From positions 124,001 to 188,000 of the forward strand of contig NZ_BMFC01000008.1 in NCBI RefSeq assembly GCF_014637725.1: 64,000 nt of DNA. The letters run 5' to 3'. A program made the translations under genes and the position numbers. The notes under the pieces are model-generated. The model was not told the DNA's origin and made no database searches. It was given only the letters and a program-made list of their open reading frames with translations. How positions within the stretch are numbered: position 1 is the first letter of the stretch; the number at the start of each line of letters is the position of its first letter. This document shows, piece by piece, positions 45,494 to 62,592 of this stretch. The stretch is from Marivita lacus. GTDB lineage: Bacteria; Pseudomonadota; Alphaproteobacteria; Rhodobacterales; Rhodobacteraceae.

Positions 45494-45537
45494 GATTTCC
45501 TCCCTATGACGCATTGAACGAGGATGGCGAACCGTCC

Positions 45538-46416
45538 TCAAGTGAAGGAGTCGAATGCTTCGCGCATCCGATCCACGTCTGGTTCACAGCCCGTGAAAAG
45601 CTCGAAGGCCCGAACAGCCTGATAAAGCGCCATCCCCGACCCAGGCAGCACCGCGCAACCCTTGGCACGCGCGGTGGACAACAGATCCGTCTCCAATGGG
45701 AAATAGACGATGTCAGCAACCCAGTGATCGGGGCGGATCGCCTCTTCTGGCAGCGGCATTCCCGGTAGCTTATCCATCCCCACGGGGCTCGCGTTGACAA
45801 TGCCCTGAGCCTGATCGGCAGCCTCGTATACGTCGGTGGCGACCTCAGCCCGGTGTGGACCGTAATGTTCAGTCAACAGCGCCACGAGCTCGATTGCGAC
45901 CTGATCATTCACATCACGTATCGCCAAGCGTGCGACACCCGCATCCAGCAACGCATGTGCGACAGCACCACCTGCCCCGCCGGCGCCCAACAAGAGCACG
46001 CGGTCGCGCGGAGCACCGGGCAGCCCTTGGCGCAGGCTCTCGCTGAACCCCCAGTGATCAGTGTTATGCCCCGAACGGCGCCCGTCGCGGAAAACGACTG
46101 TATTCACAGCGCCCACATTGCGCGCCGCTTGCGAGAGTTCGTCCATGAGCGGCAGCACCGCACGCTTGTAAGGATAGGTAACGTTCAGACCATCGAAACC
46201 CTCGGCCTCCAGCAACGCCAGAATCTCGGCGGGGTCCTCGGGAAGGCTGCGCACTTGGGAATCGACCAGATAATAGTCGTAAGAAACCCCTGCCGACGTG
46301 GCTGCCGCCATATGCATGCGCGGCGTCCGCGTCCCGGCGATGCCACTTCCAAGAAGTCCGATCTTCAAGGCGCGGGCCGGGCTTTCGCCTGCCTGCGCCG
46401 CGATTGTGCTGTTCAC
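45538..46416 (-). CDS. aroE: Quinate/shikimate dehydrogenase (AroE-like)
   Basis: A 292-residue member of the shikimate dehydrogenase family. Substrate-binding motif GIAGTRTPRMHM replaces the HSxSPxMHN of biosynthetic AroE, a pattern closer to catabolic QsuD-type enzymes. NVTYPYK supplies the catalytic Lys and GHNTDHWGF the Asp. The cofactor site is LLLGAGGAGGAVAHALL, then NASPVGM and VADIVYFPLET. With QuiC and TRAP genes in the same operon a catabolic quinate/shikimate role is more likely than biosynthesis. It is the first gene of the operon. Confidence 0.87.
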   Translation of the reverse strand: MNSTIAAQAGESPARALKIGLLGSGIAGTRTPRMHMAAATSAGVSYDYYLVDSQVRSLPEDPAEILALLEAEGFDGLNVTYPYKRAVLPLMDELSQAARNVGAVNTVVFRDGRRSGHNTDHWGFSESLRQGLPGAPRDRVLLLGAGGAGGAVAHALLDAGVARLAIRDVNDQVAIELVALLTEHYGPHRAEVATDVYEAADQAQGIVNASPVGMDKLPGMPLPEEAIRPDHWVADIVYFPLETDLLSTARAKGCAVLPGSGMALYQAVRAFELFTGCEPDVDRMREAFDSFT

Positions 46417-46598: not shown

Positions 46599-48251
46599 AT
46601 GGGAGAGACGGGCGAGAGCGGGGAACAGCAACGCGGGGGGTGGAAGCAGAACCCGGACGCGGTGCGTGACAACATCCTTCATGCGGCCCGAGAAGTCTTC
46701 GCCCGTCACGGCCTCTCGGGCGCTCGCATCGACGAAATCGCCCGGCGCACCCGCACGTCAAAACGGATGATCTATTACTACTTTTCCGACAAGGAGACAC
46801 TCTATCAAGCCGTCCTGGAAGATGCCTACACGCGCATGCGCCGTGAAGAAGACGCGCTGGATTTGGGCAAGCTTCATCCTGTCGCGGCCCTTCGTGAATT
46901 GGCCGAATTCACATTCGAACACCACCGCCACGACACCGACTTCGTGCGTTTGGTGATGATCGAGAACATCCATGAGGGAGAGCATATGTCCCGGATCAAG
47001 TCGATCTCGGGGCAAAACAGTTCGGCCATCGCGTTGCTGGAAGACATCTACCAGCGCGGGGTCGAAATGGGGCTGTTCCGTCGCGGACTCTCGGCGCTTG
47101 AATTGCATTGGCATATTTCGGCGGCCTCGGTCTTCAACGTCTCCAACCGCGCGACGTTCTCGCACATTTTCGGAGACGACATTTTCACGGAACGCGGCCA
47201 GCAAAAGCTACGCCGACAGGTTGGCGACATGATCCTGGGTATCGCAATGAAACCGGGCCTGTCCGCCGAAACCGACATGCCCCGCGCAAGAGAGGAAGCA
47301 CGCATGATCAATCCAGATATTTTCCGGTTCCTGGAGGTGTGGGACGCAAAATGGGCCACTCTGACACCCGAGGCCACAGCCGCCGATCGCCGAGTGCATT
47401 TCGAAAGCATCGCGCGTGACATGCGCCTGCCCACCCCACCGGATGTCGAAACAGATGAGGAACATTGGATCGATAGTGACGGCGGTCCCGTGCGCGTGCG
47501 CATCTTCCGCCATGCCTCGGGCGGCAGCCAGCCCGCGCTGATCTACATGCACGGCGGCGCATGGATGCAAGGCAGCCCCGAGACGCATTGGGACATCACC
47601 GCACGGATCGCTGCCTGGAACAAGCAGACGGTGATTTCAGTCGACTATGCGCTGGCTCCGGAACACCCGTTCCCAGCAGGCTACTTGCAAGTCCTTGCAG
47701 TAGCCCGCTGGGCCCATGAAAAGGCCGCCGAACTGGGCATTGATCGCACCCGCATCGCGATCGGCGGTGACAGTGCCGGCGGCAATCTGGCCGCCGCCGT
47801 CGCGCTGACAGCCCGCGATGAAGGGATTCCCATGGCCGGGCAGCTCCTGATTTACCCGGCTTGCGACTTTGACCGGTCACGTCCCTCCTACACCGAAAAC
47901 GCCGAGGGCCCGCTGCTGAAGGTTGCCGGGATGGCGGCAACAAACGCGCTCTATTGTGCCGATGTCGCGCAACTCAACACCGATCCCCGCATCGCGCCCT
48001 TGGCCGCGCAAACCCATGCAGGCCTGCCGCCTGCCTATGTGGCCGTGGCCCAGAATGACCCGCTACGCGATTCTGGCAATGCCTATGCCGAGGCCATGAA
48101 AAACGCCGGTGTCCCAGTCACGATCGAGCCGGGCGAGGGCCTCATCCACGGATATCTGCGCGCGATGGAGTACTGTCCAGAGGCGGAAATCCGGTTAAAG
48201 GAAATGGCAGCGTGGCTCGACAAAACTGTGAATCAAAATCAGAGATCATGA
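46599..48251 (+). CDS. TetR regulator fused to an HSL-family esterase
   Basis: A 550-residue single chain. Residues ~17-65 are a TetR helix-turn-helix (ILHAAREVFARHGLSGARID, RTSKRMIYYYFSDKETLY) and ~70-225 a TetR ligand domain. From residue 236 the chain is an alpha/beta hydrolase of the hormone-sensitive-lipase family: oxyanion motif YMHGGAW, nucleophile elbow GGDSAGG, and Asp and His in QNDPLRD and GLIHGY. Met236 (ATG at 47304) follows GAGAGGAAG, so the esterase may also be made alone by internal initiation. It is divergent from the quinate/shikimate operon and probably regulates it; the esterase could cleave a quinate or shikimate ester. Confidence 0.85.
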   Translation: MGETGESGEQQRGGWKQNPDAVRDNILHAAREVFARHGLSGARIDEIARRTRTSKRMIYYYFSDKETLYQAVLEDAYTRMRREEDALDLGKLHPVAALRELAEFTFEHHRHDTDFVRLVMIENIHEGEHMSRIKSISGQNSSAIALLEDIYQRGVEMGLFRRGLSALELHWHISAASVFNVSNRATFSHIFGDDIFTERGQQKLRRQVGDMILGIAMKPGLSAETDMPRAREEARMINPDIFRFLEVWDAKWATLTPEATAADRRVHFESIARDMRLPTPPDVETDEEHWIDSDGGPVRVRIFRHASGGSQPALIYMHGGAWMQGSPETHWDITARIAAWNKQTVISVDYALAPEHPFPAGYLQVLAVARWAHEKAAELGIDRTRIAIGGDSAGGNLAAAVALTARDEGIPMAGQLLIYPACDFDRSRPSYTENAEGPLLKVAGMAATNALYCADVAQLNTDPRIAPLAAQTHAGLPPAYVAVAQNDPLRDSGNAYAEAMKNAGVPVTIEPGEGLIHGYLRAMEYCPEAEIRLKEMAAWLDKTVNQNQRS

Positions 48252-49607: not shown

Positions 49608-50297
49608 ATGATCTCGGAAGGCACCAACCGGACGCTTGATCTGGCGATTTCACCAGATGGGAGCGCCGCGCCGGGACAGCTCTACACCATTGAGGCACGC
49701 AGCGGGGTCGCGGTGCGGCTGCAAAAGGTGCAGCTGCTGCGCATCTTCAATCCAAGCGGACATCAAGTCTGCGATTTCTGGGCCTTTGCAGCAGGTGATC
49801 TGACCGAGTACCTGTCCATGGCGCATCTGCACACGTCCCTCGGCTCGATCTTTCCAAAGGTCGGTGACAAGCTGGTCACCACTCGGCGGCGGGCGTTGTT
49901 CACGCTGACGGAAGACACCTCTCCGGGCGTACATGACACGATCATCGCCTCTTGCGATGCGGCGCGGTACCGCGAACTGGGCTGTACGCAATATCACGAC
50001 AATTGCGCCGACAACCTCTGCATGGCGCTCTGCGCCATCGGATTGGAGGCGCCACTGGTCCCGGCGCCCTTCAATATCTGGATGAATGTCCCAGTCGCTG
50101 CCGATGGCAGCACCCGGTTCGCGCCCCCGGTGTCAAAACCCGGCGACCGGGTGGTCCTGCGCGCCGAGGATGACGCCATCGCCGTGATGTCTGCCTGTCC
50201 GCAGGATCTCACGCCGGTGAATGGCGAGAATGCCGCGCCGGATATCCTGCAATTCGACGTGGTAGATCAGGCCGGGAACGCGAGCTCGGGACGGTAG
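49608..50297 (+). CDS. DUF1989 domain protein (urea carboxylase-associated type)
   Basis: A 229-residue protein with the DUF1989 core: QLLRIFNPSGHQVCDFWAF, SMAHLHTSLGSIFPKVGD and the metal-site-like segment SPGVHDTIIASCDAARY, then YHDNCADNLC. Members of this family form carboxyguanidine deiminase subunits next to urea/guanidine carboxylases; here it is a single copy without carboxylase genes. ATG 49608 is preceded by AGGGAAGG; in-frame GTG/ATG at 49575-49578 are alternatives. Its 3' end overlaps the convergent phosphoribosyltransferase gene by 31 nt. Confidence 0.85.
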   Translation: MISEGTNRTLDLAISPDGSAAPGQLYTIEARSGVAVRLQKVQLLRIFNPSGHQVCDFWAFAAGDLTEYLSMAHLHTSLGSIFPKVGDKLVTTRRRALFTLTEDTSPGVHDTIIASCDAARYRELGCTQYHDNCADNLCMALCAIGLEAPLVPAPFNIWMNVPVAADGSTRFAPPVSKPGDRVVLRAEDDAIAVMSACPQDLTPVNGENAAPDILQFDVVDQAGNASSGR

Positions 50298-50890
50298 GCC
50301 TCAAAGCTCGAGAGAGTTTGCGCGTTGCATTCGGTTTGCCAACGGGAGCCAGGTAGGACGGCCGAGATGCAGGGATAGGTCGCGCGGTAGTGATCGGTGC
50401 GCTCATTTTCCTCGATCGCAACCGCCACAAGGCCGGCAACCACACCCTTCTGCCGTTCAACGAGGTGGATTGCACCATCCATGGTCCCGCCGGTTTCCAC
50501 CCATTGATCGACCAGCAAGACGCGGGTGCCCGCCGCAAAGGCGGGAAGGCGCATTTCCATGTCCTGTGTGCGGCCCGAATAATTGCCGAAGGAGACCCTG
50601 TCGGTGTCCACGCACAGCTTGCCAGCCTTGCGGATCGGCAGGAAACCAACGTCGGAGCGGGCCGCGAGCGCCGCAGCAAGCACGAAGCCCATCGCGTCAA
50701 GCCCGGCGACAACGTCGTATTCGACCTTCTCGAGGTCCGCCATCAGGTCATCGAGAAGATGCGTGAATGCCTTTTGGTTGATGTAAATCGAGGTCGGATC
50801 GAGCCATGCGAATTTGTCGCCCTTTGTGTTGGGTGCCATGATGTTCAGATACCAACGGTCGTCGCGGGGGCCTTTGTCGTGCTCGGTCAT
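50267..50890 (-). CDS. Phosphoribosyltransferase family protein
   Basis: A 207-residue type I phosphoribosyltransferase-like protein. The PRPP-binding loop appears as VLLVDQWVETGGTMDGAIHL and the hood region as VVAGLDAMGFVLAAALA, near adenine phosphoribosyltransferases in layout. Substrate is unknown. It overlaps the BtpA-like gene by 4 nt (ATGA), so the two are translationally coupled. Together they suggest handling of a nucleobase or its ribosyl product within the nitrogen-compound cluster. Confidence 0.8.
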   Translation of the reverse strand: MTEHDKGPRDDRWYLNIMAPNTKGDKFAWLDPTSIYINQKAFTHLLDDLMADLEKVEYDVVAGLDAMGFVLAAALAARSDVGFLPIRKAGKLCVDTDRVSFGNYSGRTQDMEMRLPAFAAGTRVLLVDQWVETGGTMDGAIHLVERQKGVVAGLVAVAIEENERTDHYRATYPCISAVLPGSRWQTECNAQTLSSFEAYRPELAFPA

Positions 50891-51633
50891 GTCAACGGTT
50901 CCTGTCCTAGGGTTCGGGTGACGCGCATCAGCGCGGCGAGCCGTTCCGGGTCGATGTCGTAGAAATTGCCTGGAATGTTGATGCCGGTTGCGACCATGAA
51001 ACAGTCCACATCCGCATAGCTCGCCGCATTTTCAGGTGTGATGCCGGAGGCCAGCGCGAGGGGTTTGTCCCCGATGGCCGCGCGGAAGGTTTCGATCTTG
51101 CCCAGGTCGGCCTCTTGTCCGGTGGCCACGCCGGAGGTCGTGACAACATCCATGAAGGCACAGGCCTCGCGGGCGGCGGCGCCATGGTGCTCTGGGGCGA
51201 TCTCGCGTTGCTTCTTGAAGCAGGTGCCGCCAAAATAGAGCCCCCGCCAGCCGTTCTGCTCGTAGACCTGCGCGATCTCGCGCGCCTCTGCGTTTTGCCC
51301 ATGCTCGTCGATGCATGCGTCATCAGCCCAATAGGCATCGACGGTCACGCCGTCTTCGGCCAGGGCGCCGAGCATCGGAAAGGCATTCTTCCCGGTCACC
51401 GCGAGAAAATTCACGCCGAGCCACAGGGATGGGTAGGCGGCGCGCACATTGCGGATGATCGGAAGAAAGCGCTCGGGCTCGAAATCGTGGTTGATCAGAA
51501 AACAGCCCGGCGCGCCCGCCGCGATCACGTGGCGCAGGTTTCGCAAGGTCCGGGGTGTGTCGAGCACATGCAGGACAGGCAGGACCACAGGTCCTGGCGC
51601 TTTGAAATATTTGTGAAAGTCAGATCGGTTCAT
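50887..51633 (-). CDS. BtpA/SgcQ-like TIM-barrel protein
   Basis: A 248-residue TIM-barrel protein resembling BtpA/SgcQ: PVVLPVLHVLDTPRTLRNLR, APGCFLINHDFEP, LWLGVNFLAVTG, FMDVVTTSGVATGQ and a phosphate-binding-like ALASGITPENAASY. Proteins of this family were linked to photosystem I stability in cyanobacteria and to sugar operons in enterics, without a fixed reaction. It is the first gene of a two-gene operon with the phosphoribosyltransferase and is divergent from the LysR gene. Confidence 0.75.
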   Translation of the reverse strand: MNRSDFHKYFKAPGPVVLPVLHVLDTPRTLRNLRHVIAAGAPGCFLINHDFEPERFLPIIRNVRAAYPSLWLGVNFLAVTGKNAFPMLGALAEDGVTVDAYWADDACIDEHGQNAEAREIAQVYEQNGWRGLYFGGTCFKKQREIAPEHHGAAAREACAFMDVVTTSGVATGQEADLGKIETFRAAIGDKPLALASGITPENAASYADVDCFMVATGINIPGNFYDIDPERLAALMRVTRTLGQEPLT

Positions 51634-51712
51634 GGGAACATGATTAATCTTGGATCGCGGATTGATGAAATTTATAGTTGCAATTGTTCAATAAGGATTT
51701 GAAATCTCAATC
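51634..51712. promoter_or_regulatory. Divergent control region between btpA-like and LysR genes
   Basis: A 79-nt AT-rich spacer, unlike its GC-rich surroundings, between two divergent starts. Such spacers commonly hold the LysR operator and both promoters. Minus-strand TTGAAC and TATAAA occur but not at standard spacing, so no promoter is assigned. Confidence 0.45.
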
Positions 51713-52603
51713 ATGCGCATTGTCAACTTGCCCACCGACCTTTTGCGGACCTTCATCACCGTGATCGAGGTTCGAAGTCACACCAAGGCTGCCGAGTTGC
51801 TCAACCGGTCGCAGCCCGCCGTCAGCCTTCAGATCAAGCGACTGGAAGACATGGTTGGATACAAGCTTATCCGGCAGAAGGGGCGCATAATGCATGTCAG
51901 CGAGAAAGGCGAGGCGCTTGCGATGCATGCACGGCAAATCCTGCGTCTGAACGACCTCGCGATCGGACTCTTCGAGCGAAAGCACGCGGACAGCCTTCTG
52001 CGGATCGGCCTGCCACTGGATTACGGCGTCCGGCATTTGCAACGGGCGGTCACAGGGGTGATTCATGCGCATCCGGCGTTGCGCCTTACGGTTCGCTGCG
52101 ACCTATCTCGGAGCTTGCAGGAAGCACTCTTGCGCGACGAACTCGACATGATCGTCGCGCTCTATCAAGGGGGCGATCCGCAGTTTCTCGTGCAGAGTTG
52201 GGAAGAGCAGCCGGTTTGGGTTGGCGCGGATGCGCTACAGCTGGACGCGTTCGACGCGTTGCCGCTTGTCGCTCACCCGACGGGATGCGTTTACCGGCAA
52301 CGCATGACGGACGCGCTGAGCTCTGTGGAGCGCAACTGGAATGTCGTTTTCTCTAGCCCTGACATCGATGCGGTACAGCAAGCCGTGCGCGATGGTCTTG
52401 GCTTCACCAGCCTGACCTCACCCACCACGCTGGAGGGAATGCGGCGCGTTTCGCCCAGCGAAGGTCTGCCAGCGCTGGAGCCGATCCGTATCGGTCTGTT
52501 CTACCGGCAGACCCGGTTTGGCAGTTGGGGCAACCTGGTCGCGGAGACGCTGACCGAAGCAATCGAAACGACCCTGCAAATCGACGCAAAACTGCGTGCC
52601 TGA
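51713..52603 (+). CDS. LysR family transcriptional regulator
   Basis: A 296-residue LysR-type regulator. The N-terminal winged helix has LPTDLLRTFITVIEVRSHTK and AAELLNRSQPAVSLQIKRLE; the rest is a periplasmic-binding-like effector domain. It is divergent from the BtpA-phosphoribosyltransferase pair and 145 nt upstream of the ABC transporter operon in the same direction, so it probably controls both in response to the imported compound. The 145-nt spacer has an AT-rich segment (52610-52640) that may carry the operator and promoter for the transporter. Confidence 0.9.
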   Translation: MRIVNLPTDLLRTFITVIEVRSHTKAAELLNRSQPAVSLQIKRLEDMVGYKLIRQKGRIMHVSEKGEALAMHARQILRLNDLAIGLFERKHADSLLRIGLPLDYGVRHLQRAVTGVIHAHPALRLTVRCDLSRSLQEALLRDELDMIVALYQGGDPQFLVQSWEEQPVWVGADALQLDAFDALPLVAHPTGCVYRQRMTDALSSVERNWNVVFSSPDIDAVQQAVRDGLGFTSLTSPTTLEGMRRVSPSEGLPALEPIRIGLFYRQTRFGSWGNLVAETLTEAIETTLQIDAKLRA

Positions 52604-52748
52604 GATAACAAACGTTAATGCATTTATATGCGCGATAAATTTCCTCCCCTCCCTGATTCTTACTAACCTTCTCTCGACTGCACTTGGAGGCTTTGAACGA
52701 CCTCTTTCCAAGGCATGACGAACAACAAACAGCAGTGGAGTATGGAAG

Positions 52749-53885
52749 ATGGCTATCAAGGACAAAACAACGATAAAACATTACGTTAGACGAGATGTTC
52801 TGAGGCTTGGCGGGGGTGTCGCGCTGTCTGCTCCCTTTGTCGGAAGGGCATGGGCGCAGACCACCGAGATCAACATGCTGGCGTGGTACGGGCATGGCGA
52901 GCCGGACATGGTGGGGGCGTTTGAGGAGGCCAACAACGTCAAGTTTGTGCCCAAATATTATGCAGGTGGGGACAATATGTTGGCACTCATCGCGCAATCG
53001 CCTCCCGGCACCTATGACATCATCCTCTCCGACGGCGAGTTCGTCCAGCAGCTCAACGCCGCTGGCTACATCGAAGAGCTGGACGCGAATGACTATCCGT
53101 TCGACGACATGCTGCATGAGGATTTCACCAAGTTCCCCGGTCACTGGGAGGGCGACACGCTCTACTCGATGATCCTGCGCGGCGGGCATCTCGGGGTTTC
53201 CTACAACACCACCGCGATGAGTGCCGAAGAGGCAGCGAGCTACGAGGGCTTCTGGAAGCCGGAGCTTGCTGGCAAGGTCGGCCATTTCGACTGGCACCTG
53301 CCGAGCCTTGGCATGATGAGCCTCAAGAACGGCAACGGTGCTGGCCTTTGGGATCTGACGGACGATCAGTGGCAGGCTGTTCAGGACGTGACGATGACGC
53401 TGCGCCCGCAGGTCGGTGGCTTCTTCGACTATGGCGGCACGTTCAACAGCCTCAAGAACGGTGAAATGCTCGCCATGTGCGGCATCGGCGATTGGATCAC
53501 GGGTGTTCTGGAACGCGACGGCGCGCCGGTCGCCTCGGTGATTCCGAAAGAGGGCGGCATCCAGTTCACCGAAAGCTATTGCATCGGCAAGAACAGCAGC
53601 AAGGCGGATCTCGTCAAGAGCTTCATCCAGTACATGATGTCTCCCGAGGGGCAGGTCAAATCGGCCCAGATGCTCGCCTATCCCGGCTTCTGCGTGACCA
53701 AGGCCGGCCGGGCGCTCCTGCAGGAGGTCGATCCTGCCGAAGCCAAGCGCAGCCACCAGATGGACGGGATGCCGAACGATCCGATCGCGCTCATCAACGA
53801 AGGCCGCATCCACTATCGCGACATTCCCAAGCAGCAGACGCTGGAGGACTGGAACGACTTCTGGTCGGAATACAAGAACGCCTGA
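52749..53885 (+). CDS. PotD-like ABC transporter substrate-binding protein
   Basis: A 378-residue binding protein with a twin-arginine-type leader (VRRDVLRLGGGVALSAPFVG, Arg14-Arg15). The mature part fits the spermidine/putrescine (PotD/PotF) class: INMLAWYGHGEPDMVGAFEE, GTYDIILSDGEFVQQL, GVSYNTTAMSAEEAASYEGF and AMCGIGDWITGVL. It is the first of seven same-strand genes ending in a ureohydrolase. A polyamine or guanidino-type cation is a plausible ligand, but this class also binds other small compounds. Confidence 0.9.
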   Translation: MAIKDKTTIKHYVRRDVLRLGGGVALSAPFVGRAWAQTTEINMLAWYGHGEPDMVGAFEEANNVKFVPKYYAGGDNMLALIAQSPPGTYDIILSDGEFVQQLNAAGYIEELDANDYPFDDMLHEDFTKFPGHWEGDTLYSMILRGGHLGVSYNTTAMSAEEAASYEGFWKPELAGKVGHFDWHLPSLGMMSLKNGNGAGLWDLTDDQWQAVQDVTMTLRPQVGGFFDYGGTFNSLKNGEMLAMCGIGDWITGVLERDGAPVASVIPKEGGIQFTESYCIGKNSSKADLVKSFIQYMMSPEGQVKSAQMLAYPGFCVTKAGRALLQEVDPAEAKRSHQMDGMPNDPIALINEGRIHYRDIPKQQTLEDWNDFWSEYKNA

Positions 53886-53900
53886 TACAGGCCACATCGC

Positions 53901-53973
53901 GTCCCGGTCCTGACCCGGGGCCTCGCGCTTCACAGGCACGGGGTCCCGGATCAGGGTCGGGGCCAGGTTTTTT
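53901..53973 (+). terminator. Attenuator-like hairpin between the binding protein and permease genes
   Basis: Imperfect inverted repeat, 53901-53922 against 53942-53963 (most positions pair, GTCCCGGTCCTGACCCGGGG in the left arm), followed by six T at 53968-53973, directly before the GTG start of the permease. This looks like a leaky intrinsic terminator that lets the binding protein be made in excess. Confidence 0.6.
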
Positions 53974-53974
53974 G

Positions 53975-54838
53975 GTGAACATTGTGAACAGACGCCTCGA
54001 CCTCTACGCACTGACATGGCGGTTGCCGATCATCCTTTGGCAACTGGTCTTTTTCGTTGGCCCTGTCGTGTTCATGGTCGCGATGTCCTTTTTCGTCGTG
54101 CGCAATTACCGCATGATGGAAGCCTTTGAATTCGCCAACTGGGAGCGGATGCTCACCCGCGGCTTTTTCTGGGACAGCTACTGGTACACGCTCTTCGTTG
54201 CGTCCCTCAGTGCAACCATCGCCATGTGCGTGGCCTTCCCGGCAGCATGGGCGCTGGCGTTCCGCGCCTCGGAGTCGGTGCGGCGATGGGCGATTTTCCT
54301 GCTCGTGATCCCTTTTTTCACCTCGTATCTCGTGCGGACCTTCTCCTGGTACGTGATCCTTGCCGAAAGCGGGGTTTTGAACGCGATGCTTGGCTATATC
54401 GGCCTTGGTCCGTTCCGGATGCTCAACACCCATTTCGGAACAATCGTCGGCTACCTGACTCTGACTCTGCCGCTGGTGGTGATCCTGCAGACCGTGAGCA
54501 TGGCGAATATCGACAAGACGCTGGTCGAGGCCGCGCGGAACCTCGGATGCAAGCCACTGGCGACAATCTGGCGGGTGGTGCTGCCGCTGTCGAAAACCGG
54601 GTTCATCGTGGCGGCGTTGTTCTGCTTCATCCTTGCCTTCGGGGATTTCGTCGCGCCCTTCTACCTCGGTGGCTCGCAGGAGCCGACCCTGCCGATCCTG
54701 ATCCTCGACACGACCAAGTCCGGGCAACAATGGCCGCGCGCTGCCGTGGTTGCGATCATGATGATGCTCACGCTCTTTACCATCGCCTTTACCGCCATCG
54801 CGCTGGCGTATCGCAAACCAAAGGGGGCACGGGCATGA
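53975..54838 (+). CDS. PotB-like ABC transporter permease
   Basis: A 287-residue membrane protein with six helices and the permease EAA loop (VEAARNLGCKPLATIWRVVL). The N-terminus reads LPIILWQLVFFVGPVVFMVA. The GTG at 53975 (a second GTG is at 53984) is chosen by homology; there is no good ribosome-binding site because the attenuator hairpin and T-run lie immediately upstream. Its stop overlaps the next permease start (ATGA). Confidence 0.88.
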   Translation: MNIVNRRLDLYALTWRLPIILWQLVFFVGPVVFMVAMSFFVVRNYRMMEAFEFANWERMLTRGFFWDSYWYTLFVASLSATIAMCVAFPAAWALAFRASESVRRWAIFLLVIPFFTSYLVRTFSWYVILAESGVLNAMLGYIGLGPFRMLNTHFGTIVGYLTLTLPLVVILQTVSMANIDKTLVEAARNLGCKPLATIWRVVLPLSKTGFIVAALFCFILAFGDFVAPFYLGGSQEPTLPILILDTTKSGQQWPRAAVVAIMMMLTLFTIAFTAIALAYRKPKGARA

Positions 54839-55629
54839 TGGGGCGCGGGCTGAACATCTTTCTTGGCCTTTATGTCGGCCTCATCTTCGCCTTCGTCTTC
54901 GCGCCAATTCTCTTCAGCCTTGTCTTCTCGTTGAACTCCCAGCGGTTTCCGACGATCCCGCTCGGCGAGTTCACCCTCGAATGGTATGTGCAGATCTGGA
55001 ACGATGAGGATGTCTGGCAGGCGGTGCGCAACTCTGTGATCGTGTCGAGCAGCACCGCGGTGCTCGCCACTTTCCTCGGCTTCTGCACGGCCTATTCCGA
55101 TTTTCGCTACAATTTCCGGTTCAAGGGCCCCTATCTCGCGCTCATCCTGCTGCCGCCGACGATCCCGCTCATCATCATGGCGCTTGCGATGCTGGCATGG
55201 CTGTCGCGCATCGGGCTGTCGGGGCAGCTCTGGTCGATCATCCTGGCGCATTCGGTGCTGACAGCGCCCTTCGCCATGGCGCTAATCCGCCTGCGCCTGC
55301 ATCAGATGGACCCCGATCTGGAGGCTGCCGCGTGGAATCTCGGAGGAAGCGAGTGGCAGGCGATGCGCCATGTGATCGTGCCATTCTGCGCCCCGGCCAT
55401 CGTCTCGGCGCTCTGCCTCACCGCGGCCATATCCTTCGACGAGTTTGCCGTGTCCTGGTTTGTCTCGGGCCTCAACAAGACCGTGCCCATCGTGATCCTC
55501 GAAATTGTGCAGGGCAATATCGACCCTACCGTGAACGCCATCGGAACCTTCGTGTTCCTGACTTCCATGACGCTGGTGATCCTTGCACAAGTGATCTTCA
55601 TCGGCCGCCAGATAAAGAGCCACTCATGA
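54835..55629 (+). CDS. PotC-like ABC transporter permease
   Basis: A 264-residue second permease with six helices, an extracytoplasmic loop (FTLEWYVQIWNDEDVWQAVR) and the EAA loop LEAAAWNLGGSEWQAMRHVI. It pairs with the PotB-like subunit in the membrane. It overlaps both neighbours by 4 nt (ATGA at each junction), so permeases and ATPase are translationally coupled. Confidence 0.92.
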   Translation: MMGRGLNIFLGLYVGLIFAFVFAPILFSLVFSLNSQRFPTIPLGEFTLEWYVQIWNDEDVWQAVRNSVIVSSSTAVLATFLGFCTAYSDFRYNFRFKGPYLALILLPPTIPLIIMALAMLAWLSRIGLSGQLWSIILAHSVLTAPFAMALIRLRLHQMDPDLEAAAWNLGGSEWQAMRHVIVPFCAPAIVSALCLTAAISFDEFAVSWFVSGLNKTVPIVILEIVQGNIDPTVNAIGTFVFLTSMTLVILAQVIFIGRQIKSHS

Positions 55630-56711
55630 GCGAGCCACTTGTCACTTTCCGCAATGTCGAAAAACGCTTCGACGATTTCGTTGCTGTCCGGGACATGTCC
55701 CTCGACATCCATGAAGGAGAATTCCTCGCGATCATGGGCTCGTCAGGCTGTGGCAAGACCACAACCCTGCGGATGCTTGCTGGGTTGGAGGCACCCACAT
55801 CCGGGGAGATCCGGATCGGCGGGCGGCTGATGAATGATGTCAAACCCCATGAGCGAGATACACCGCTTGTCTGGCAATCGCTGGCCTTGTTTCCCTTCCT
55901 GACCGCGCGGGAGAACGTCGAATTCGGGTTGAAGATGCGCGGCATGGCAGCGGCCGAGCGCAAGCGGCGCGCCCTCGACTGGTTGGAGCGGATGCAGATA
56001 GAGGCGTTTGCCGAACGCAACGTGGCCACGCTCTCGGGAGGGCAGAAACAGCGTGTCGCGCTGGCCCGCAGTCTGGTGATGGAGCCGCGGATGCTTCTGC
56101 TCGATGAGCCGCTTTCTGCGCTCGATGCCAACCTCGTGATCCGGATGCAGGGTGTTCTGACGCGGTTGCAACGCGAGTTGGGGATCACCTTTGTCTACGT
56201 GACGCATTCCCAGTCTGAAGCCTTTGCCATGGCCGACCGGGTGGTGATCATGAGCCAGGGCGATATCGCGCAGATCGGCTCGCCCAAGGACATCTACCGC
56301 GCCCCGGCGAACCGCTTCGTGGCGGAGTTTGTCGGGCGCAACAATATCCTCAGCGGCACGGTTGGCGAGACCGGTGGCAATGGATTGCACATCGACACCC
56401 CACAGGGGCGCTTTGTTGCCCACATGCCCGAGACCGTGCCCGCGCAAGGCGCAGAGGTCAGCTTTACCGTTTCGGCTGATCTGGTCACGCTCTCGCTCAC
56501 CGAGCCCGAGGCAGTGAACAAGGTACAGGCCACGCTGATCTCGGAGGAATTCATTGGCTCCGTGGTCACATTGTTCTTCGAGGGCGCGGACAGGTTGGAG
56601 TTCAAGGTGCAGATGCAGGAACGCGCGCTTCTGGAGCTCGATCTGGAACCGGGCAGTGCCGTCTGGCTCAGCTGGGAGGCCGAAAACGCCAATATCCTGG
56701 AGGATAATTGA
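55626..56711 (+). CDS. PotA-like ABC transporter ATPase
   Basis: A 361-residue ATPase. Walker A is GSSGCGKTTT, the Q-loop lies in LVWQSLALFPFLTARENV, the signature is LSGGQKQRVALARS, and Walker B is MLLLDEPLSALDA. The H-loop reads VTHSQSEA, where most relatives have VTHDQEEA; the catalytic His is kept. A TOBE domain fills residues ~235-361, as in PotA/MalK-type importers. It energises the PotB/PotC-like permeases. Confidence 0.92.
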   Translation: MSEPLVTFRNVEKRFDDFVAVRDMSLDIHEGEFLAIMGSSGCGKTTTLRMLAGLEAPTSGEIRIGGRLMNDVKPHERDTPLVWQSLALFPFLTARENVEFGLKMRGMAAAERKRRALDWLERMQIEAFAERNVATLSGGQKQRVALARSLVMEPRMLLLDEPLSALDANLVIRMQGVLTRLQRELGITFVYVTHSQSEAFAMADRVVIMSQGDIAQIGSPKDIYRAPANRFVAEFVGRNNILSGTVGETGGNGLHIDTPQGRFVAHMPETVPAQGAEVSFTVSADLVTLSLTEPEAVNKVQATLISEEFIGSVVTLFFEGADRLEFKVQMQERALLELDLEPGSAVWLSWEAENANILEDN

Positions 56712-56712
56712 G

Positions 56713-57600
56713 ATGATCCGCAATCCAATCCCATGGCCGAACGGCGCGAAATGCGCCGTGGCGATTACCTTCGACATGGATGCCGACAGCCTCATCCATA
56801 TCGCGCGGCCCGAGGACAGCCACCGCCGTCTCTATCCGACCTCGATGGGGCGCTACGGGCCGAATGTCGCGATCCCGCGCATTCTGGACACCTACGCGCG
56901 CCTCGGTCTGAAACAGTCCTTCTTCATTCCCGGCTGGTGCCTTGAGCACTACCCGGCAGCCGTGGAGGCGATCCTCAAAGGCGGGCACGAGATCGGCCAT
57001 CACGGATGGATCCACGAGGATCCGATTGCCACCTATGGCAGTCAGCGCGAGCCCTTCGAGCGGGCGCTCGACGCCCATAAGAGCATCTGCGGCAAGATCC
57101 CGGCAGGATATCGCGCCCCGGTCTACAATATCACCGACGAGGTGGTGGACCTGATGCTGGAGCATGGGATGCGCTATGACAGCTCGCTGATGGGAGACGA
57201 TATCCCGCACGCGTTGCAAAACGCCAGAGGACAGCTTTACGAGATGCCCGTACATTGGGGCACTGATGACTGGCCGCCCTTCGCCCATTACGACGAGATC
57301 GGCTACCTGATGCCGGTGAAGTCCCCCTCCGAGGGGCTTGCGGGGTTCTGGCAAGAGTTTGACGCGCAATATGAGGCAGGGGGCTTCTTCATGCTGATTG
57401 TGCATCCGTTCCTGACCGGGCGCCTCGCCCGCTGGCGGCTGGTGGAGCAGTGGATCGAAAGCACGCTGGAGACCAAGGACGTGTGGTTTACAACGCTTGG
57501 CGGGATCGCCGATCATATGGACACTCTGGTCGCAACAGGTGCATGGTCGCCCAGTATCGAGCGTCTTCCCTATTTCGACATGCCCCCGGCACAAACCTGA
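56713..57600 (+). CDS. Polysaccharide deacetylase-fold amidohydrolase (PuuE-like)
   Basis: A 295-residue NodB-fold protein. Metal-site motifs are FDMDAD near the N-terminus and GHEIGHHGWIHEDP; the C-terminal part has IVHPFLTGR. No signal peptide, so it acts in the cytoplasm, unlike cell-wall deacetylases. The fold also includes metal-independent allantoinase PuuE and related C-N hydrolases, which suits its place between an importer and two nitrogen hydrolases. It begins 2 nt after the ATPase stop. The substrate is unknown. Confidence 0.85.
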   Translation: MIRNPIPWPNGAKCAVAITFDMDADSLIHIARPEDSHRRLYPTSMGRYGPNVAIPRILDTYARLGLKQSFFIPGWCLEHYPAAVEAILKGGHEIGHHGWIHEDPIATYGSQREPFERALDAHKSICGKIPAGYRAPVYNITDEVVDLMLEHGMRYDSSLMGDDIPHALQNARGQLYEMPVHWGTDDWPPFAHYDEIGYLMPVKSPSEGLAGFWQEFDAQYEAGGFFMLIVHPFLTGRLARWRLVEQWIESTLETKDVWFTTLGGIADHMDTLVATGAWSPSIERLPYFDMPPAQT

Positions 57601-57609
57601 GGTTTTCCC

Positions 57610-58056
57610 ATGATGACAGAAGACGACAAGCGCCTGCTTCGGATCGCCTATGACGAGGCCAAGGCGGGATTTGACGAGGGCGGATGCCCGATTGGCTCGG
57701 TGCTTGCGCGCGGCGGCGAAGTGGTGAGCCGGGGCCGGAACCAGCGGGTGCAAGGCGGCGATCCGATTGCCCATGGCGAGATGGACGCGCTGCGCAAGGC
57801 AGGTCGGCAAAAGACCTACCGCGACGCGGTGCTCTACACATCGCTCAGCCCCTGCATGATGTGCTCTGGCACGATCGTGCAGTTCGGTATTCCCCGCGTG
57901 GTGATCGGGGATGCGACCAATTTCGGTGGCAACGAGGAGTTCCTGCGGTCACGCGGCGTCGAGGTGGTGATTGCGGAAGACCCTGATTGCGTGGCGTTGA
58001 TGAAACGCTTCATCGAGGAAAAACCGGAACTTTGGGCCGAGGATATCGCCGAATGA
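57610..58056 (+). CDS. Cytidine/cytosine deaminase-fold nucleoside/base deaminase (Fcy1-like)
   Basis: A 148-residue zinc deaminase. The zinc site is AHGEMDAL (His and catalytic Glu) and SPCMMCSG (two Cys). EGGCPIGSVLARGG, TLYT-like VLYTSLSPC and the C-terminal IEEKPELWAEDIAE closely resemble yeast cytosine deaminase Fcy1. It likely deaminates an amino-pyrimidine or another amidine-like group of the imported compound. It starts 9 nt after the deacetylase-fold gene and overlaps the next gene by 4 nt. Confidence 0.87.
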   Translation: MMTEDDKRLLRIAYDEAKAGFDEGGCPIGSVLARGGEVVSRGRNQRVQGGDPIAHGEMDALRKAGRQKTYRDAVLYTSLSPCMMCSGTIVQFGIPRVVIGDATNFGGNEEFLRSRGVEVVIAEDPDCVALMKRFIEEKPELWAEDIAE

Positions 58057-59015
58057 GTGATCCTTTCTTTCACCCGGTCTCTGGCTTCGATCTGCCGCGC
58101 TTTGCCGGGGTGCCGACTTTCATGCGCCTGCCCCATGTGGATCTCGATCATCCACGCCTTTCTGAGGTTCAGATCGGACTCATTGGCGTGCCCTGGGACA
58201 GCGGGACCACGAACCGGCCCGGCCCGCGCCATGGGCCGCGCCAGTTGCGCGATGCCTCCACCATGATCCGCGCGCAGAACGGCGCGACCGGCGTGCGTCC
58301 GTTCGAAAGGGTCAATTGTGCCGATCTGGGCGATGTGCCGCCAAACCCAGCCGACCTCCTTGATTCCATGGAACGGATTACGGGTTTTTATAACCGTGTC
58401 ATGGCTGCCGGCATCACGCCGCTGACGGCGGGGGGCGATCACTTGTCTTCACTGCCCATCCTGCGGGCCCTGGCAAAGAACGCGCCACTGGGCATGATCC
58501 ATTTCGACAGTCACACGGATCTCTTCCACAGCTATTTCAACGGCACGAAATACACGCATGGCACCCCGTTCCGCCGCGCAGTCGAGGAAGGGCTGCTGGA
58601 CCCGAAACGGGTGATCCAGATCGGCATTCGCGGCACCACCTATGACATGGAAGACCGCGATTTTGCCGCGTCGGTGGGTATCCGAATTGTCCCCATCGAA
58701 GAGTTTTTCGCGCGCGGTGTCGAGGACGTCATGCGTGAGGCGCGCGAGATCGTCGGCACCGAAGCCACCTATGTCTCTTACGATATCGACTTCGTCGATC
58801 CGGCCTTCGCGCCTGGCACGGGCACACCGGAGGTTGGCGGACCAACCGCATTTCAGGCCTTGCAGGTGGCGCGGCTTCTTGGTGGTGTGAACATTATCGG
58901 CGCTGATCTCGTGGAAGTCTCACCCCCCTTCGACGCATCGGGAAACACAGCGTTTCTCGGCATGTCGATCCTCTTCGAGATGCTTTGCGTGATGAGCACG
59001 CCCCGCGAAGGGTGA
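58053..59015 (+). CDS. Agmatinase/guanidino-compound ureohydrolase
   Basis: A 320-residue ureohydrolase. The Mn ligands are in GGDH (near residue 127), HFDSHTDLFH and SYDIDFVDPAFAPGTGTPE. The third block matches agmatinase-type enzymes rather than arginase. Such enzymes remove urea from a guanidino group (agmatine, guanidinobutyrate, guanidinopropionate, or guanidine itself). The second motif has Ser in place of the common Ala (FDAHTD). Last gene of the cluster; its start overlaps the deaminase stop (ATGA). Confidence 0.9.
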   Translation: MSDPFFHPVSGFDLPRFAGVPTFMRLPHVDLDHPRLSEVQIGLIGVPWDSGTTNRPGPRHGPRQLRDASTMIRAQNGATGVRPFERVNCADLGDVPPNPADLLDSMERITGFYNRVMAAGITPLTAGGDHLSSLPILRALAKNAPLGMIHFDSHTDLFHSYFNGTKYTHGTPFRRAVEEGLLDPKRVIQIGIRGTTYDMEDRDFAASVGIRIVPIEEFFARGVEDVMREAREIVGTEATYVSYDIDFVDPAFAPGTGTPEVGGPTAFQALQVARLLGGVNIIGADLVEVSPPFDASGNTAFLGMSILFEMLCVMSTPREG

Positions 59016-59885: not shown

Positions 59886-60488
59886 TCAAGGGCGCGCGGC
59901 CAGCCCGGCGTCACCCAGTTGCTCCCGATCGGGCAGGTCGCGCAAACTCTCGATCCCGAAGGCCGCAAGGAACGCGTCTGTGGTCACAAAGGTATAGGGG
60001 GCACCACGACGCGGGGCGCGCGGTCCGGTTGCAATCAGACCGTGAGCATGCAGCCGCCCGACCAGGTCACGGCTGATCTCCTTACCGAAGATGTCCTTCA
60101 GCCCATCGCGGGTGATCGGCTGGTGATAGGCGATGGCGGCCAGCACCGCGACGTCGAACTCGTTCAGGTCCAACAGCTGGTCGCCGACATCTGCCGCAAT
60201 GCGGATCGCAGGCGCGTAAGCGGTCCGCGTCCGGAACATCCACCCCCCGGCGACTTGGGCAATCTCGAACGCTCGGCCTTGCAGATCGGCGGCCAGATCC
60301 TCGACCAGCAGATCAACCGAGGCCGCCTGCCCCACCACGCGCGCCAGGTCCTCGCGCGGTACAGGCGAGGCGGAGGCAAACAGCACCGCCTCGACCCGAC
60401 GCATCCATTCCCGCCAGCGCAACTCCGGCGGCAGGTCCGCCAACTCAAGGTCAAGCTCGGGCTCTGGGCGATCCTTGGTCACGCTCAC
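59886..60488 (-). CDS. scpB: ScpB-like segregation and condensation protein
   Basis: A 200-residue winged-helix protein of the ScpB family: VEAVLFASASPVPREDLARV at the N-terminus, then the second winged helix with VAVLAAIAYHQPITRDGLKD and GRLHAHGLIATGPRAPRRGA-PYTFVTTDAF. Canonical ScpB works with ScpA and SMC, but here the partner is a DUF1403 gene, with a 4-nt overlap, and no scpA is present. This accessory form is typical of mobile or plasmid-borne segments in Rhodobacterales. Confidence 0.87.
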   Translation of the reverse strand: MSVTKDRPEPELDLELADLPPELRWREWMRRVEAVLFASASPVPREDLARVVGQAASVDLLVEDLAADLQGRAFEIAQVAGGWMFRTRTAYAPAIRIAADVGDQLLDLNEFDVAVLAAIAYHQPITRDGLKDIFGKEISRDLVGRLHAHGLIATGPRAPRRGAPYTFVTTDAFLAAFGIESLRDLPDREQLGDAGLAARP

Positions 60489-61444
60489 ACCCCGTAAAGG
60501 CGAAAACTATCGCGACCTGTCAGTTCTCGCACCGCGTCGAGATCAACCAATCGGTCACAGAGCCGCCGCGCGGCGCGGTCCGGCAAGGGCAAGGCACCAG
60601 GTGCCACCGCGTCCTGTGTCAGGAATATCTCGACCGCCTCCCCGGCCCCCTTGGCCCGAAGCTTTGGTGCAACCCCTTTCAAAAGCGCAGCCCGGCGCGC
60701 GAGGTCGCCGGCGAGACGCACGGCGTCGACCGCGGATGCGGTCACAGCGCGATGACAGGCCAGGCGAAGGTCGTCGCCTCGCTTGCGCAGGTCGGCGCGT
60801 TTCACTCCCGCCGCCAGCAGCGGCACGAGGTGATCCCACCCGAGCGCCTGCGCAAGGGCCGCGTCCGCGAGGATCAGCGCCGGGACTTCTGCACGGGGTG
60901 CCTCCATCAGGACAGCCTCCAGCACCATCGCCGCGCGGGTCACCGGTTCCCCTTTTCCCGCATCGAGCCACGTGCCGATCTGACTTGGCTCCAGGGTCGG
61001 CAAGGCTCGACCCAGCGCCTTGACCGACACCGGCCGGTCAGTGGCGCGACGCCACGCCAGATATGCCTCCCCAGCCGGGCCGGGCAGGTCGCCGGGTCGC
61101 AACAGGTGTACCGCGTCGCGCAACTCCCCTGCCCGTTCCGGACGACCCGAAAACGCGACACAGGCCTCGGCCGCGCGCAACGCAAGCCGATTCCGCGACA
61201 AGGCTTGGGGTACCGCATGATGTCCCAGCACAACATGCAGGTGGTTCAACGCCGCACCCGACAAAAACGCCACATCTTCAAGGGTATCACCTCGCGCAGA
61301 GGTGATCCAAGAGGGTTTCTTGGCTATCCTTTCGAGGGTGTCGATGGGATCGTGCCGGGCAAATGTCATGTTTGGAGCGTACACCGAAGCGGCGCTTTTT
61401 GCCAGAATGAAACGTACAAACCGCCCTGCCTTGTCGCCGTTCAT
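60485..61444 (-). CDS. DUF1403 family protein
   Basis: A 319-residue, Ala/Leu/Arg-rich helical protein of the DUF1403 family (TLEDVAFLSGAALNHLHVVL, AFSGRPERAGELRDAVHLLR, ALGWDHLVPLLAAGVKRADL). Function is unknown. Its only stable neighbour is scpB, overlapping by 4 nt, so a role in a chromosome- or plasmid-maintenance complex is an inference. The ATG at 61444 sits right beside a perfect palindrome; an in-frame ATG at 61369 is the alternative start. Confidence 0.82.
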   Translation of the reverse strand: MNGDKAGRFVRFILAKSAASVYAPNMTFARHDPIDTLERIAKKPSWITSARGDTLEDVAFLSGAALNHLHVVLGHHAVPQALSRNRLALRAAEACVAFSGRPERAGELRDAVHLLRPGDLPGPAGEAYLAWRRATDRPVSVKALGRALPTLEPSQIGTWLDAGKGEPVTRAAMVLEAVLMEAPRAEVPALILADAALAQALGWDHLVPLLAAGVKRADLRKRGDDLRLACHRAVTASAVDAVRLAGDLARRAALLKGVAPKLRAKGAGEAVEIFLTQDAVAPGALPLPDRAARRLCDRLVDLDAVRELTGRDSFRLYGV

Positions 61445-61445
61445 T

Positions 61446-61474
61446 ACGTCCGATAAGTTTGCATTATCGGACGT
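61446..61474. promoter_or_regulatory. Perfect palindrome upstream of DUF1403 (operator or recombination site)
   Basis: ACGTCCGATAA (61446-61456), a 7-nt spacer GTTTGCA and TTATCGGACGT (61464-61474): 11-bp perfect arms, starting 2 nt from the DUF1403 ATG. Position suggests an operator for DUF1403-scpB, but the arms-plus-spacer layout would also fit a site-specific recombinase site. Confidence 0.6.
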
Positions 61475-61501
61475 GACGAGATATTCTCAAAAACATGGGC
61501 A

Positions 61502-61630
61502 TGTCGTTTTAGTTTTGTCGGATGACCGGAAATCATGAGATTCAAGCACTTCCCTGAAAAACGAGTCGGGGTTCATGAGATTCTGTACCGGTATTTATGA
61601 GACTGGATGAGTCGATATTTGTGAGACTGG
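61502..61630. repeat. Transposon end with four transposase-binding-like repeats
   Basis: Four 19-bp imperfect direct repeats: 61526-61544, 61566-61584, 61588-61606 and 61612-61630, with consensus YCGG-N2-TTYATGAGAYT. They cover the last codons of tniQ and the sequence beyond. A terminus of type TGTCG is found at 61502 (TGTCGTTTTAG) or 61516 (TGTCGGATGACC). Such multiple repeats are the binding sites of TniA/TnsB transposases at Tn5053/Tn7-like ends. Confidence 0.6.
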
Positions 61631-62592
61631 CGTTGTCTCGCGGTTTTTTCGGCAGTCTGGTGTGCTTTCTCGTCGCGCTCAGCGCGCCAGAACCGGGCCG
61701 AGATGCTTCGCCTCAACGAGAGAGGCCATGAGCGGAGCGCCTCCCGGACCCGCTCTTGTCCGTTCATGTCACTTGCGAGCAGCACGTCAATTGCTCGGGC
61801 CACGGGATCTTCGACGATCCGGCCGATGCCAGCCGTCAGCGAGAAACACTGCAATAGCGAGCCCTGCGTCAGGGCGTGGAGACCGGGTCGCACCGGCTTG
61901 GTAAGCACTGGCGCCACCTGATCGTATTCAGGAACGACGACCGTCAGCGCTTGTCGGATGATCGGCGTGGTCAGAAAATCATGATAGTCCCGTCGGTCTT
62001 TCAAAGACATTCGCGGCTGCTCGTCGACGTTCGGCGGCGAAGCCCGGCGATGCCGCGCCGTCAGAACCTGGAGCACTTCGGGCACCCCTAGGTCCCCCTG
62101 CCCCGCGCCGCGCACCCAGGCATCGAGATGCGTGGCTCCGGCTCCGGCATATTCTTCGAGTTTCTTGAAGTGATCGCTTCCGAACCGGGCGGACAGGGTC
62201 TCGCCGGTGGCATCATGAAATTCCATACCATGCACCGGACAGCGAAATCGCCACGGTAGAGCGGCGGCTTTGCGGTGCAGGTCTTCGGGACAGTGCGGGC
62301 ACGGAAGCCGGTTCTTCCGCGCGATCATCATGCGTGCCTGCGGCCCCAACTCCCGGAAGGTCATGGCCTGCACCGCTTCGGGCAAAAGGCCGGTCCGAGC
62401 CGCGATCAGGGCCCCCTGCCCTTCTGAAAGCCGCCATTCCAGGTCGAACACGTCCTGCCCCTGCAGGCCAAGTGCTGCGACGAATTCCGAAACCGTCATG
62501 GCGTAGAACGGGGCCATGCGCGCGGCCCAGGAAGACAGTCGTTCGTCGACCTCGGGGGGGTAAACAACCGGCAGGCGCCCAAACCCCGTCAC
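61573..62592 (-). CDS. tniQ: TniQ family target-selection protein
   Basis: A 339-residue TniQ/TnsD-like protein. The N-terminus reads LPVVYPPEVDERLSSWAARM, followed by a zinc finger with CPHC and CPVHGMEFHD (two Cys pairs/His). TniQ proteins guide insertion of Tn5053/Tn7-like transposons. The last residues (SHKYRLIQSHKYR) are encoded by the transposon-end repeats, so the coding region runs into the element's terminus. It overlaps tniB by 4 nt. Confidence 0.87.
   Translation of the reverse strand: MTGFGRLPVVYPPEVDERLSSWAARMAPFYAMTVSEFVAALGLQGQDVFDLEWRLSEGQGALIAARTGLLPEAVQAMTFRELGPQARMMIARKNRLPCPHCPEDLHRKAAALPWRFRCPVHGMEFHDATGETLSARFGSDHFKKLEEYAGAGATHLDAWVRGAGQGDLGVPEVLQVLTARHRRASPPNVDEQPRMSLKDRRDYHDFLTTPIIRQALTVVVPEYDQVAPVLTKPVRPGLHALTQGSLLQCFSLTAGIGRIVEDPVARAIDVLLASDMNGQERVREALRSWPLSLRRSISARFWRAERDEKAHQTAEKTARQRQSHKYRLIQSHKYRYRIS

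Follow-up and report, generated by a model that had tools for sequence, protein, structure and literature searches.

The window analyzed here, a 64-kb stretch of the Marivita lacus genome (GCF_014637725.1, contig NZ_BMFC01000008.1, positions 124,001–188,000), contains at 49608..59015 an eleven-gene island that is probably a variant scavenging unit, through which nitrogen would be drawn from creatinine or a close cyclic guanidine. The island is arranged around a LysR regulator, which diverges from a BtpA-like barrel and a phosphoribosyltransferase (PRT) and is followed by a Pot-type importer, a NodB-fold hydrolase, an Fcy1-type deaminase, and a ureohydrolase, with a DUF1989 gene at the opposite end. 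Overlaps of four nucleotides couple PRT/BtpA, PotB/PotC, PotC/PotA, and Fcy1/ureohydrolase. A first-pass annotation, made from the sequence alone, had reported this gene set, its positions, and its couplings, all of which we confirm; Pfam and NCBIfam, used here to assign families (PotB by NCBIfam only and PotC by Pfam only), back its assignments, weakly so for BtpA. What we observe directly is the order of the genes, their conservation, their families and key residues, and the kinship of the importer; from these we infer all substrates and the order of the reactions.

With high confidence, the island is a real conserved unit. A BtpA-centered scan of bacterial genomes retrieved 194 relatives, and 80 loci were kept for counting, at an identity threshold of at least 38%; the gene counts are floors because many contigs are incomplete, and some contigs carry two names (L071 = L034, L121 = L036, L124 = L037, L100 = L189, L089 = L190). 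BtpA was found in 79 of the 80 loci, the PRT in 76, the substrate-binding protein (SBP) of the importer in 68, PotB in 60, PotA in 55, PotC and LysR in 48 each, NodB in 45, Fcy1 in 27, a phosphoribosyl pyrophosphate (PRPP) synthetase beside BtpA in 13, DUF1989 in 12, and the ureohydrolase in three. At this threshold, PotA may take in unrelated ATP-binding cassette (ABC) ATPases; 51 loci hold PotA at 55% identity or more, 45 of them with NodB and four with none of NodB, Fcy1, or the cytosine deaminase CodA. The neighborhood is more than chance, as many loci in other genomes repeat the order BtpA-PRT-LysR-SBP-PotBCA-NodB(-Fcy1). The first-pass annotation had named co-occurrence elsewhere among the points to check, and it holds: all eleven genes are found together in two relatives, Tateyamaria (L067) and Marivita cryptomonadis (L068). 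The BtpA subfamily is rare: among genomes of the order, the class, and the phylum, it is present in 8 of 292 (that of the window included), 4 of 385, and 1 of 398, respectively. A NodB of at least 76% identity was found in six of the 292, each of them one of the eight BtpA carriers. The BtpA-PRT loci of Comamonadaceae (L087, L098, L103, L123), plus L105 and L125, gave no readable metabolic context, and the neighbors of distant BtpA matches on plasmids of Variovorax (36%) and Bosea (35%) are mostly hypothetical genes. No description of the island was found in the open PMC literature searched for a BtpA and phosphoribosyltransferase operon, for BtpA/SgcQ, or for the gene combination.

The importer is what points to creatinine. 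On the plus strand, downstream of the LysR gene (51713..52603, plus strand; PF00126/PF03466), lie the genes for the periplasmic SBP (52749..53885; SBP_bac_8), a PotB-like permease (~53972..54838, starting at TTG 53972 or GTG 53975), a PotC-like permease (54835..55629), and a PotA-like ATPase (55626..56711; Pfam and NCBIfam). In a survey of plasmid-borne relatives of the SBP, 20 of the 22 matching records were inspected, some of them near relatives (e.g., two Paracoccus aminovorans records). Within 9 kb of the related SBP, 14 of the 20 places hold a creatininase and 13 a creatinase-like M24 protein. On 12 plasmids, the creatininase lies within 9 kb of an SBP 59–64% identical to that of the window, and these 12 loci also carry a LysR 42–49% identical to the window LysR; the hosts of creatininase-linked importers include Paracoccus, Mesorhizobium, and Shinella, among others. 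Sarcosine oxidase genes lie close to the related importer in three annotated cases. The set on Ancylobacter pLGM comprises an isochorismatase-family hydrolase, hydantoinase A/B, a nucleoside deaminase, an importer, and a creatininase, and that on Azoarcus pAZKH a creatinase-like M24 protein, a creatininase, an importer, and hydantoinase A/B.

The same kinship appears in a tree of 90 SBPs, limited to matches 300 or more residues long and built after omitting eight loci, namely the duplicates L034, L036, L037, L189, and L190, as well as L035, L038, and L182, which could have been kept. The 68 BtpA-linked SBPs group together (support 0.954); their sister clade (0.856) has 14 members, 13 of them linked to creatininase, and the two are joined with a support of 1.0. 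By this sister clade and the plasmid linkage, the window importer is assigned by sequence to the creatinine-operon type, and its SBP is a probable creatinine binder. Creatinine is the best substrate candidate because creatininase and creatinase genes accompany relatives of the importer, joined in three cases by sarcosine oxidase, and we regard it as the substrate of the island with moderate confidence. The closest known system is the plasmid creatinine-utilization operon of Mesorhizobium, Paracoccus, and Shinella, in which a creatininase stands opposite LysR-SBP-PotBCA, together with an M24 creatinase and in some cases a GlxA regulator and sarcosine oxidase. Regulator and importer are related to those of the window, and the divergent layout is common to seven loci: in seven of ten annotated plasmid cases, the creatininase stands where BtpA-PRT stands in the window. 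The window further differs in having NodB, Fcy1, ureohydrolase, and DUF1989 in addition.

A few of the BtpA islands contain creatinine enzymes themselves. L127 carries a creatininase and a creatinase between LysR and BtpA, and in L188 the stretch from PotA to an Fcy1-like gene, occupied by NodB in the window, contains two creatininases (361 and 350 bits; cut-off 235). A creatinase is present in five of the 80 loci (L078, L099, L114, L124, L127) versus 0.2 expected, a figure that assumes independent loci, which these are not; the L078 creatinase scores 518 bits against a solved creatine amidinohydrolase. A relative of arginine:glycine amidinotransferase lies close to the Fcy1 end in L071 and L095.

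The Fcy1-type deaminase (57610..58056, plus strand; 143.7 bits to yeast cytosine deaminase) would act on creatinine or cytosine. The yeast enzyme has the zinc ligands His62, Cys91, and Cys94, the contacts Asn51, Gly63, Glu64, and Asp155, and the aromatic residues Phe114 and Trp152 (PMC11000218). All nine zinc, contact, and aromatic (lid) positions are kept in the window protein, and its residues H55, C82, C85, N44, G56, E57, D145, F105, and W142 are each conserved at 97% or more in 27 aligned rows. Fcy1 is accompanied by NodB in each of its 27 loci and never occurs with CodA among the 80. A CodA-type cytosine deaminase (PRK07572, 704 bits; cut-off 438) follows PotA in L102, L136, L138, L183, L187, and Rhodovulum pRGUI01; three of these are among the 51 loci with PotA at 55% or more, L102 and L138 without NodB and L136 with it. 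Both Fcy1 and CodA could act as a creatinine deaminase; CodA has been tied to creatinine degradation in Corynebacterium (PMC8864220), and a cytosine deaminase appears in the legend of a creatinine-degradation figure in a review (PMC11764249). The creatinine deaminase route (CodA in Corynebacterium; Ancylobacter pLGM) resembles the window in joining a deaminase of the nucleobase kind to dedicated uptake, but differs in that the window deaminase is of the Fcy1 type, NodB would replace HyuAB, and no isochorismatase-type gene was recognized in the island; the pLGM deaminase gives no match to the window Fcy1 at E ≤ 1e-15.

These deaminases also bring in the first of the rival explanations, a salvage or catabolic island for modified pyrimidines, in which a cytosine-like compound would be taken up, deaminated by Fcy1 or CodA, turned into a nucleotide by the PRT with PRPP, and opened by NodB, with BtpA acting on a phosphoribosyl intermediate. 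The nine retained positions, the replacement of Fcy1 by a family named cytosine deaminase, and the PRPP synthetase of 13 loci all agree with this proposal, which we nevertheless regard as unlikely: creatininase-linked importers form the sister group of the importer clade, creatininase and creatinase occur inside a few islands, and all eight BtpA genomes checked already own a dihydropyrimidinase and a uracil PRT. The last point also weakens plain uracil or cytosine salvage. Uracil ring opening of the URC type was set aside, its literature matches concerning yeasts alone and no search for URC genes having been made.

The NodB-fold hydrolase (56713..57600, plus strand; PF01522) would open a cyclic amide, on N-methylhydantoin or on creatinine. 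Its solved matches are 3rxz (180 bits), 3qbu (HpPgdA, HP0310; 100 bits), PuuE (44 and 42 bits), and 3s6o (39 bits, with no function named), while peptidoglycan and chitin deacetylases reach 34 bits at most. D21, D23, H97, and H101 are each present at 97% or more in 46 rows, and the HxxxH metal motif is kept. The matches place this protein near the cyclic-imide hydrolases of the PuuE/HP0310 branch. HxnM, which has been assigned as a cyclic imide hydrolase, is structurally closest to HP0310 (PMC9304392). With HP0310 and PuuE following 3rxz among the solved matches, it is reasonable to propose that the window protein opens the ring of N-methylhydantoin or creatinine. HxnM, the Pseudomonas imidase, HP0310, and PuuE are the nearest characterized branch and share HxxxH with the window protein; they differ in that the solved structure nearest to the window protein, 3rxz, bears just the name polysaccharide deacetylase, and a cyclic substrate is predicted for the window protein. 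PuuE is said to bind no metal at its site, and polyamine importers beside HP0310 relatives have already been reported (PMC3084791). Other NodB relatives were seen in different company. A set of DUF1989, a TRZ/ATZ-type amidohydrolase, NodB, an amidase-signature protein, and a flavodoxin-fold reductase recurs in L039 (6726–12500), L040, L043, and L044 and recalls the HxnM/HxnN imidase–amidase pair, and in L043 (1422–6042), L044, and L053 an ABC importer that, as read from its sequence, resembles the BMP/nucleoside type adjoins NodB relatives.

Taken as a creatinine island, the genes would work as follows. LysR would respond to the imported compound, and the Pot-type importer would take up creatinine or a close cyclic guanidine. 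The Fcy1-type deaminase would convert creatinine to N-methylhydantoin and ammonia, and the NodB-fold hydrolase would open the cyclic amide of N-methylhydantoin or of creatinine itself. The ureohydrolase of the island, together with a creatinase and urease encoded elsewhere in the genome (the creatinase is 66% identical to that of L078), would finish guanidino and urea intermediates. The PRT would join a base to PRPP, giving a 5-phosphoribosyl adduct on which the BtpA barrel would then act.

Several observations weigh against this scheme. The window itself has neither creatininase nor creatinase, and no gene was recognized in the island for the hydrolysis of N-carbamoylsarcosine. The PRT resembles adenine PRT, and we know of no role of BtpA, PRT, or PRPP synthetase in creatinine breakdown. 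A creatinase is encoded in all eight BtpA genomes, but the comparison is weak because 10 of 16 genomes of the same order without BtpA hold one too. Not all importer relatives keep to creatinine: L230 and L232 show none of the genes searched for nearby, L228 and L231 lie with NodB-DUF1989-amidase instead, L233 has a deaminase only, and L212 is a BtpA-PRT-CodA island; in the tree, the SBPs of L188, L233, and L234 fall outside both sister clades. The pocket of the deaminase, as aligned, suits cytosine no worse than creatinine. Fcy1 relatives 75–91% identical occur in 15 of the 292 genomes of the order, only four of which have BtpA, and eight other Fcy1 contexts viewed were devoid of NodB, BtpA, or an importer of the island kind. 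In L188, the pocket of the Fcy1-like protein is not fully kept: the residues corresponding to Phe114, Asp155, and Gly63 are Y, V, and A. Lastly, HP0310 showed no activity on allantoin or on any other compound tried (PMC3084791).

The BtpA-PRT pair is the most unusual part of the island, and the role given to it is of low confidence. The BtpA/SgcQ-like, phosphate-binding TIM barrel (50887..51633, minus strand) falls under both curated cut-offs (PF03437, 24.3 bits versus 30; TIGR00259, 27.8 versus 153.4), with its C-terminal part matching the BtpA family models, and no solved sequence relative was found (best E 0.2). Its AlphaFold model has a predicted local distance difference test (pLDDT) score of 93.6, and the 50 Foldseek matches listed are tryptophan synthase alpha chains plus one ribulose-phosphate 3-epimerase, both of them phosphate-binding barrels; the functional likeness to the BtpA/SgcQ type is suggested by this modeled fold. 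The window barrel differs from that family in scoring below its cut-offs and in being coupled, and once fused, to a PRT. The partner, an APRT-like type I PRT (50267..50890, minus strand), passes the Pfam domain cut-off (PF00156, 37.3 bits versus 26.3), and its nearest solved relative is an adenine PRT (APRT; 67 bits). The PRPP motif of type I PRTs usually has two acidic residues; here it reads VLLVDQWVETGGT, with D-Q replacing D-D, and DQW is found in all 76 PRTs scanned. The PRT lies on the same strand as BtpA and within 1.5 kb in 75 of 79 loci, the exceptions being L099, L127, L129, and L136, the last of which is cut at a contig end, and in L188 the two are fused into a protein of 460 aa. 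In L099 and L129, from Shinella and a relative, BtpA stands with an importer, RbsD, and a PfkB kinase and has no PRT; L099 is one of the loci with a creatinase. The phosphate-barrel fold, the PRT fusion, the PRPP synthetase, and the RbsD/PfkB neighbors tie BtpA to ribose phosphate chemistry.

The pair often occupies the place that creatininase has in most of the related creatinine operons examined, and BtpA-PRT may process a phosphoribosyl–creatinine adduct. In human cells, creatinine ribosylation is reported to be the rate-limiting step in the formation of creatine riboside, a tumor and urine metabolite, with PRPP suggested as the donor; the ribosylation is described as catalyzed, and section 8 of the paper names no enzyme (PMC9282934). 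A phosphoribosyl-handle route can be drawn up on this basis, in which the PRT would make creatinine riboside 5′-phosphate from creatinine and PRPP, the ring would open spontaneously or through NodB, BtpA would split creatine from ribose 5-phosphate, and PRPP synthetase would recharge the cycle; in L099 and L129, PfkB kinase, RbsD, and BtpA would degrade imported creatin(in)e ribosides. We offer this route as a long shot, and the link between creatine riboside and the island as a hypothesis.

The remaining two genes are accessory. The ureohydrolase (58053..59015, plus strand) has the 3-guanidinopropionase GpuA as its best solved match (3nip, 395.6 bits), over nearly the whole length, and keeps in the alignment the GpuA specificity tyrosine, Tyr157; this activity is predicted from sequence. 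As an agmatinase, for which guanidinopropionase is the better solved match, it scores over one cut-off (TIGR01230, 179.2 versus 174.3) and under another (PRK02190, 264.9 versus 302). Of the 292 genomes of the order, 216 have a relative of it at E ≤ 1e-80, and ten contexts of copies ~80% identical contained no NodB, Fcy1, BtpA, or PRT. These island-free contexts, its frequency in the order, and its presence in three of 80 loci rule out the ureohydrolase as a core step. In L045 (15261–16226), L046, and L047, a ureohydrolase 80–84% identical accompanies NodB (57–58%), another ABC importer, and short-chain dehydrogenase/reductase (SDR) enzymes. The DUF1989 protein (49608..50297, plus strand), of the urea-carboxylase-associated family, matches PF09347 (163 bits, above its cut-off) and 3oru, its closest solved relative (233 bits), and stays below TIGR03424 (UAAP2; 95.9 bits, cut-off 284.7). 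Its 12 loci become 14 when two at 31–33% are counted, and it takes three positions, i.e., after the PRT, upstream of BtpA, or after Fcy1.

These counts bear on the first-pass proposal of one linear guanidino or ureido pathway in which importer, NodB, deaminase, ureohydrolase, DUF1989, and PRT would all be required. All eleven genes do occur in L067 and L068, and ureohydrolase-family genes lie near NodB relatives 47–58% identical in nine of 20 loci (two of the nine, L052 and L053, also holding a creatininase) versus one of nine with NodB at 33–37%; yet with the ureohydrolase in three and DUF1989 in 12 of 80 loci, and the former common outside the island, such a pathway is improbable. The broader part of that proposal, an importer with C–N hydrolases for a guanidino/ureido or nucleobase-like nitrogen compound, survives in kind, and the set does co-occur; the ureohydrolase is removed from the core, and the substrate is narrowed to creatinine, as the best candidate, through the importer relatives. 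The statement that no pathway with this combination was described no longer applies to creatinine catabolism, which is of a known kind, and stands for the BtpA-PRT module and the NodB/Fcy1 combination.

The island moves horizontally. A plasmid of Rhodovulum sp. P5 carries an island with CodA, a Pseudohalocynthiibacter plasmid carries BtpA-PRT-PRPP synthetase-LysR flanked by transposases, and in G147 the island sits on a 48-kb contig with a 127-base overlap between its two ends. Just downstream of the window copy, at 59886–63467 on the minus strand, lie ScpB, DUF1403, TniQ, and TniB genes, which means that the island borders on a Tni-type transposon module. One could see here a loose nitrogen-scavenging patch, with importer, deaminase, and hydrolases acting on different compounds and made neighbors by co-regulation and co-transfer; the optional genes differ among loci, Fcy1 relatives occur elsewhere too, and the plasmids of several hosts and the Tni genes would suit it. 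We give this explanation little credence against the strict pairing of Fcy1 with NodB (27 of 27) and the mutual exclusion of Fcy1 and CodA.

Three further features of the window deserve mention. The gap between SBP and PotB (53883–53972) contains a strong G+C-rich hairpin (−51.7 kcal/mol, with no shuffle control) that could permit an excess of SBP. Upstream, a single protein of 550 aa (46599–48251) fuses a TetR-type regulator to an alpha/beta hydrolase (Abhydrolase_3). At 44507–46416, the gene for a DctP binding protein of a tripartite ATP-independent periplasmic (TRAP) transporter overlaps a shikimate-dehydrogenase-like gene by 4 nt, which suggests uptake of a shikimate- or quinate-like compound.

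To our knowledge, no enzymes for creatine riboside were known previously, and, if the phosphoribosyl-handle route were true, those of BtpA-PRT and PfkB-RbsD-BtpA would be the first. For marine Rhodobacterales, the island offers a candidate creatinine importer; Roseobacter denitrificans is reported to grow on creatine though it lacks a CreT homologue (PMC8864220). It also points to a ring opener of the NodB type, and an ATP-independent 1-methylhydantoin hydrolase is among the alternatives in a figure legend of a review (PMC11764249). Finally, BtpA-like barrels gain a testable metabolic setting beside a phosphoribosyltransferase.

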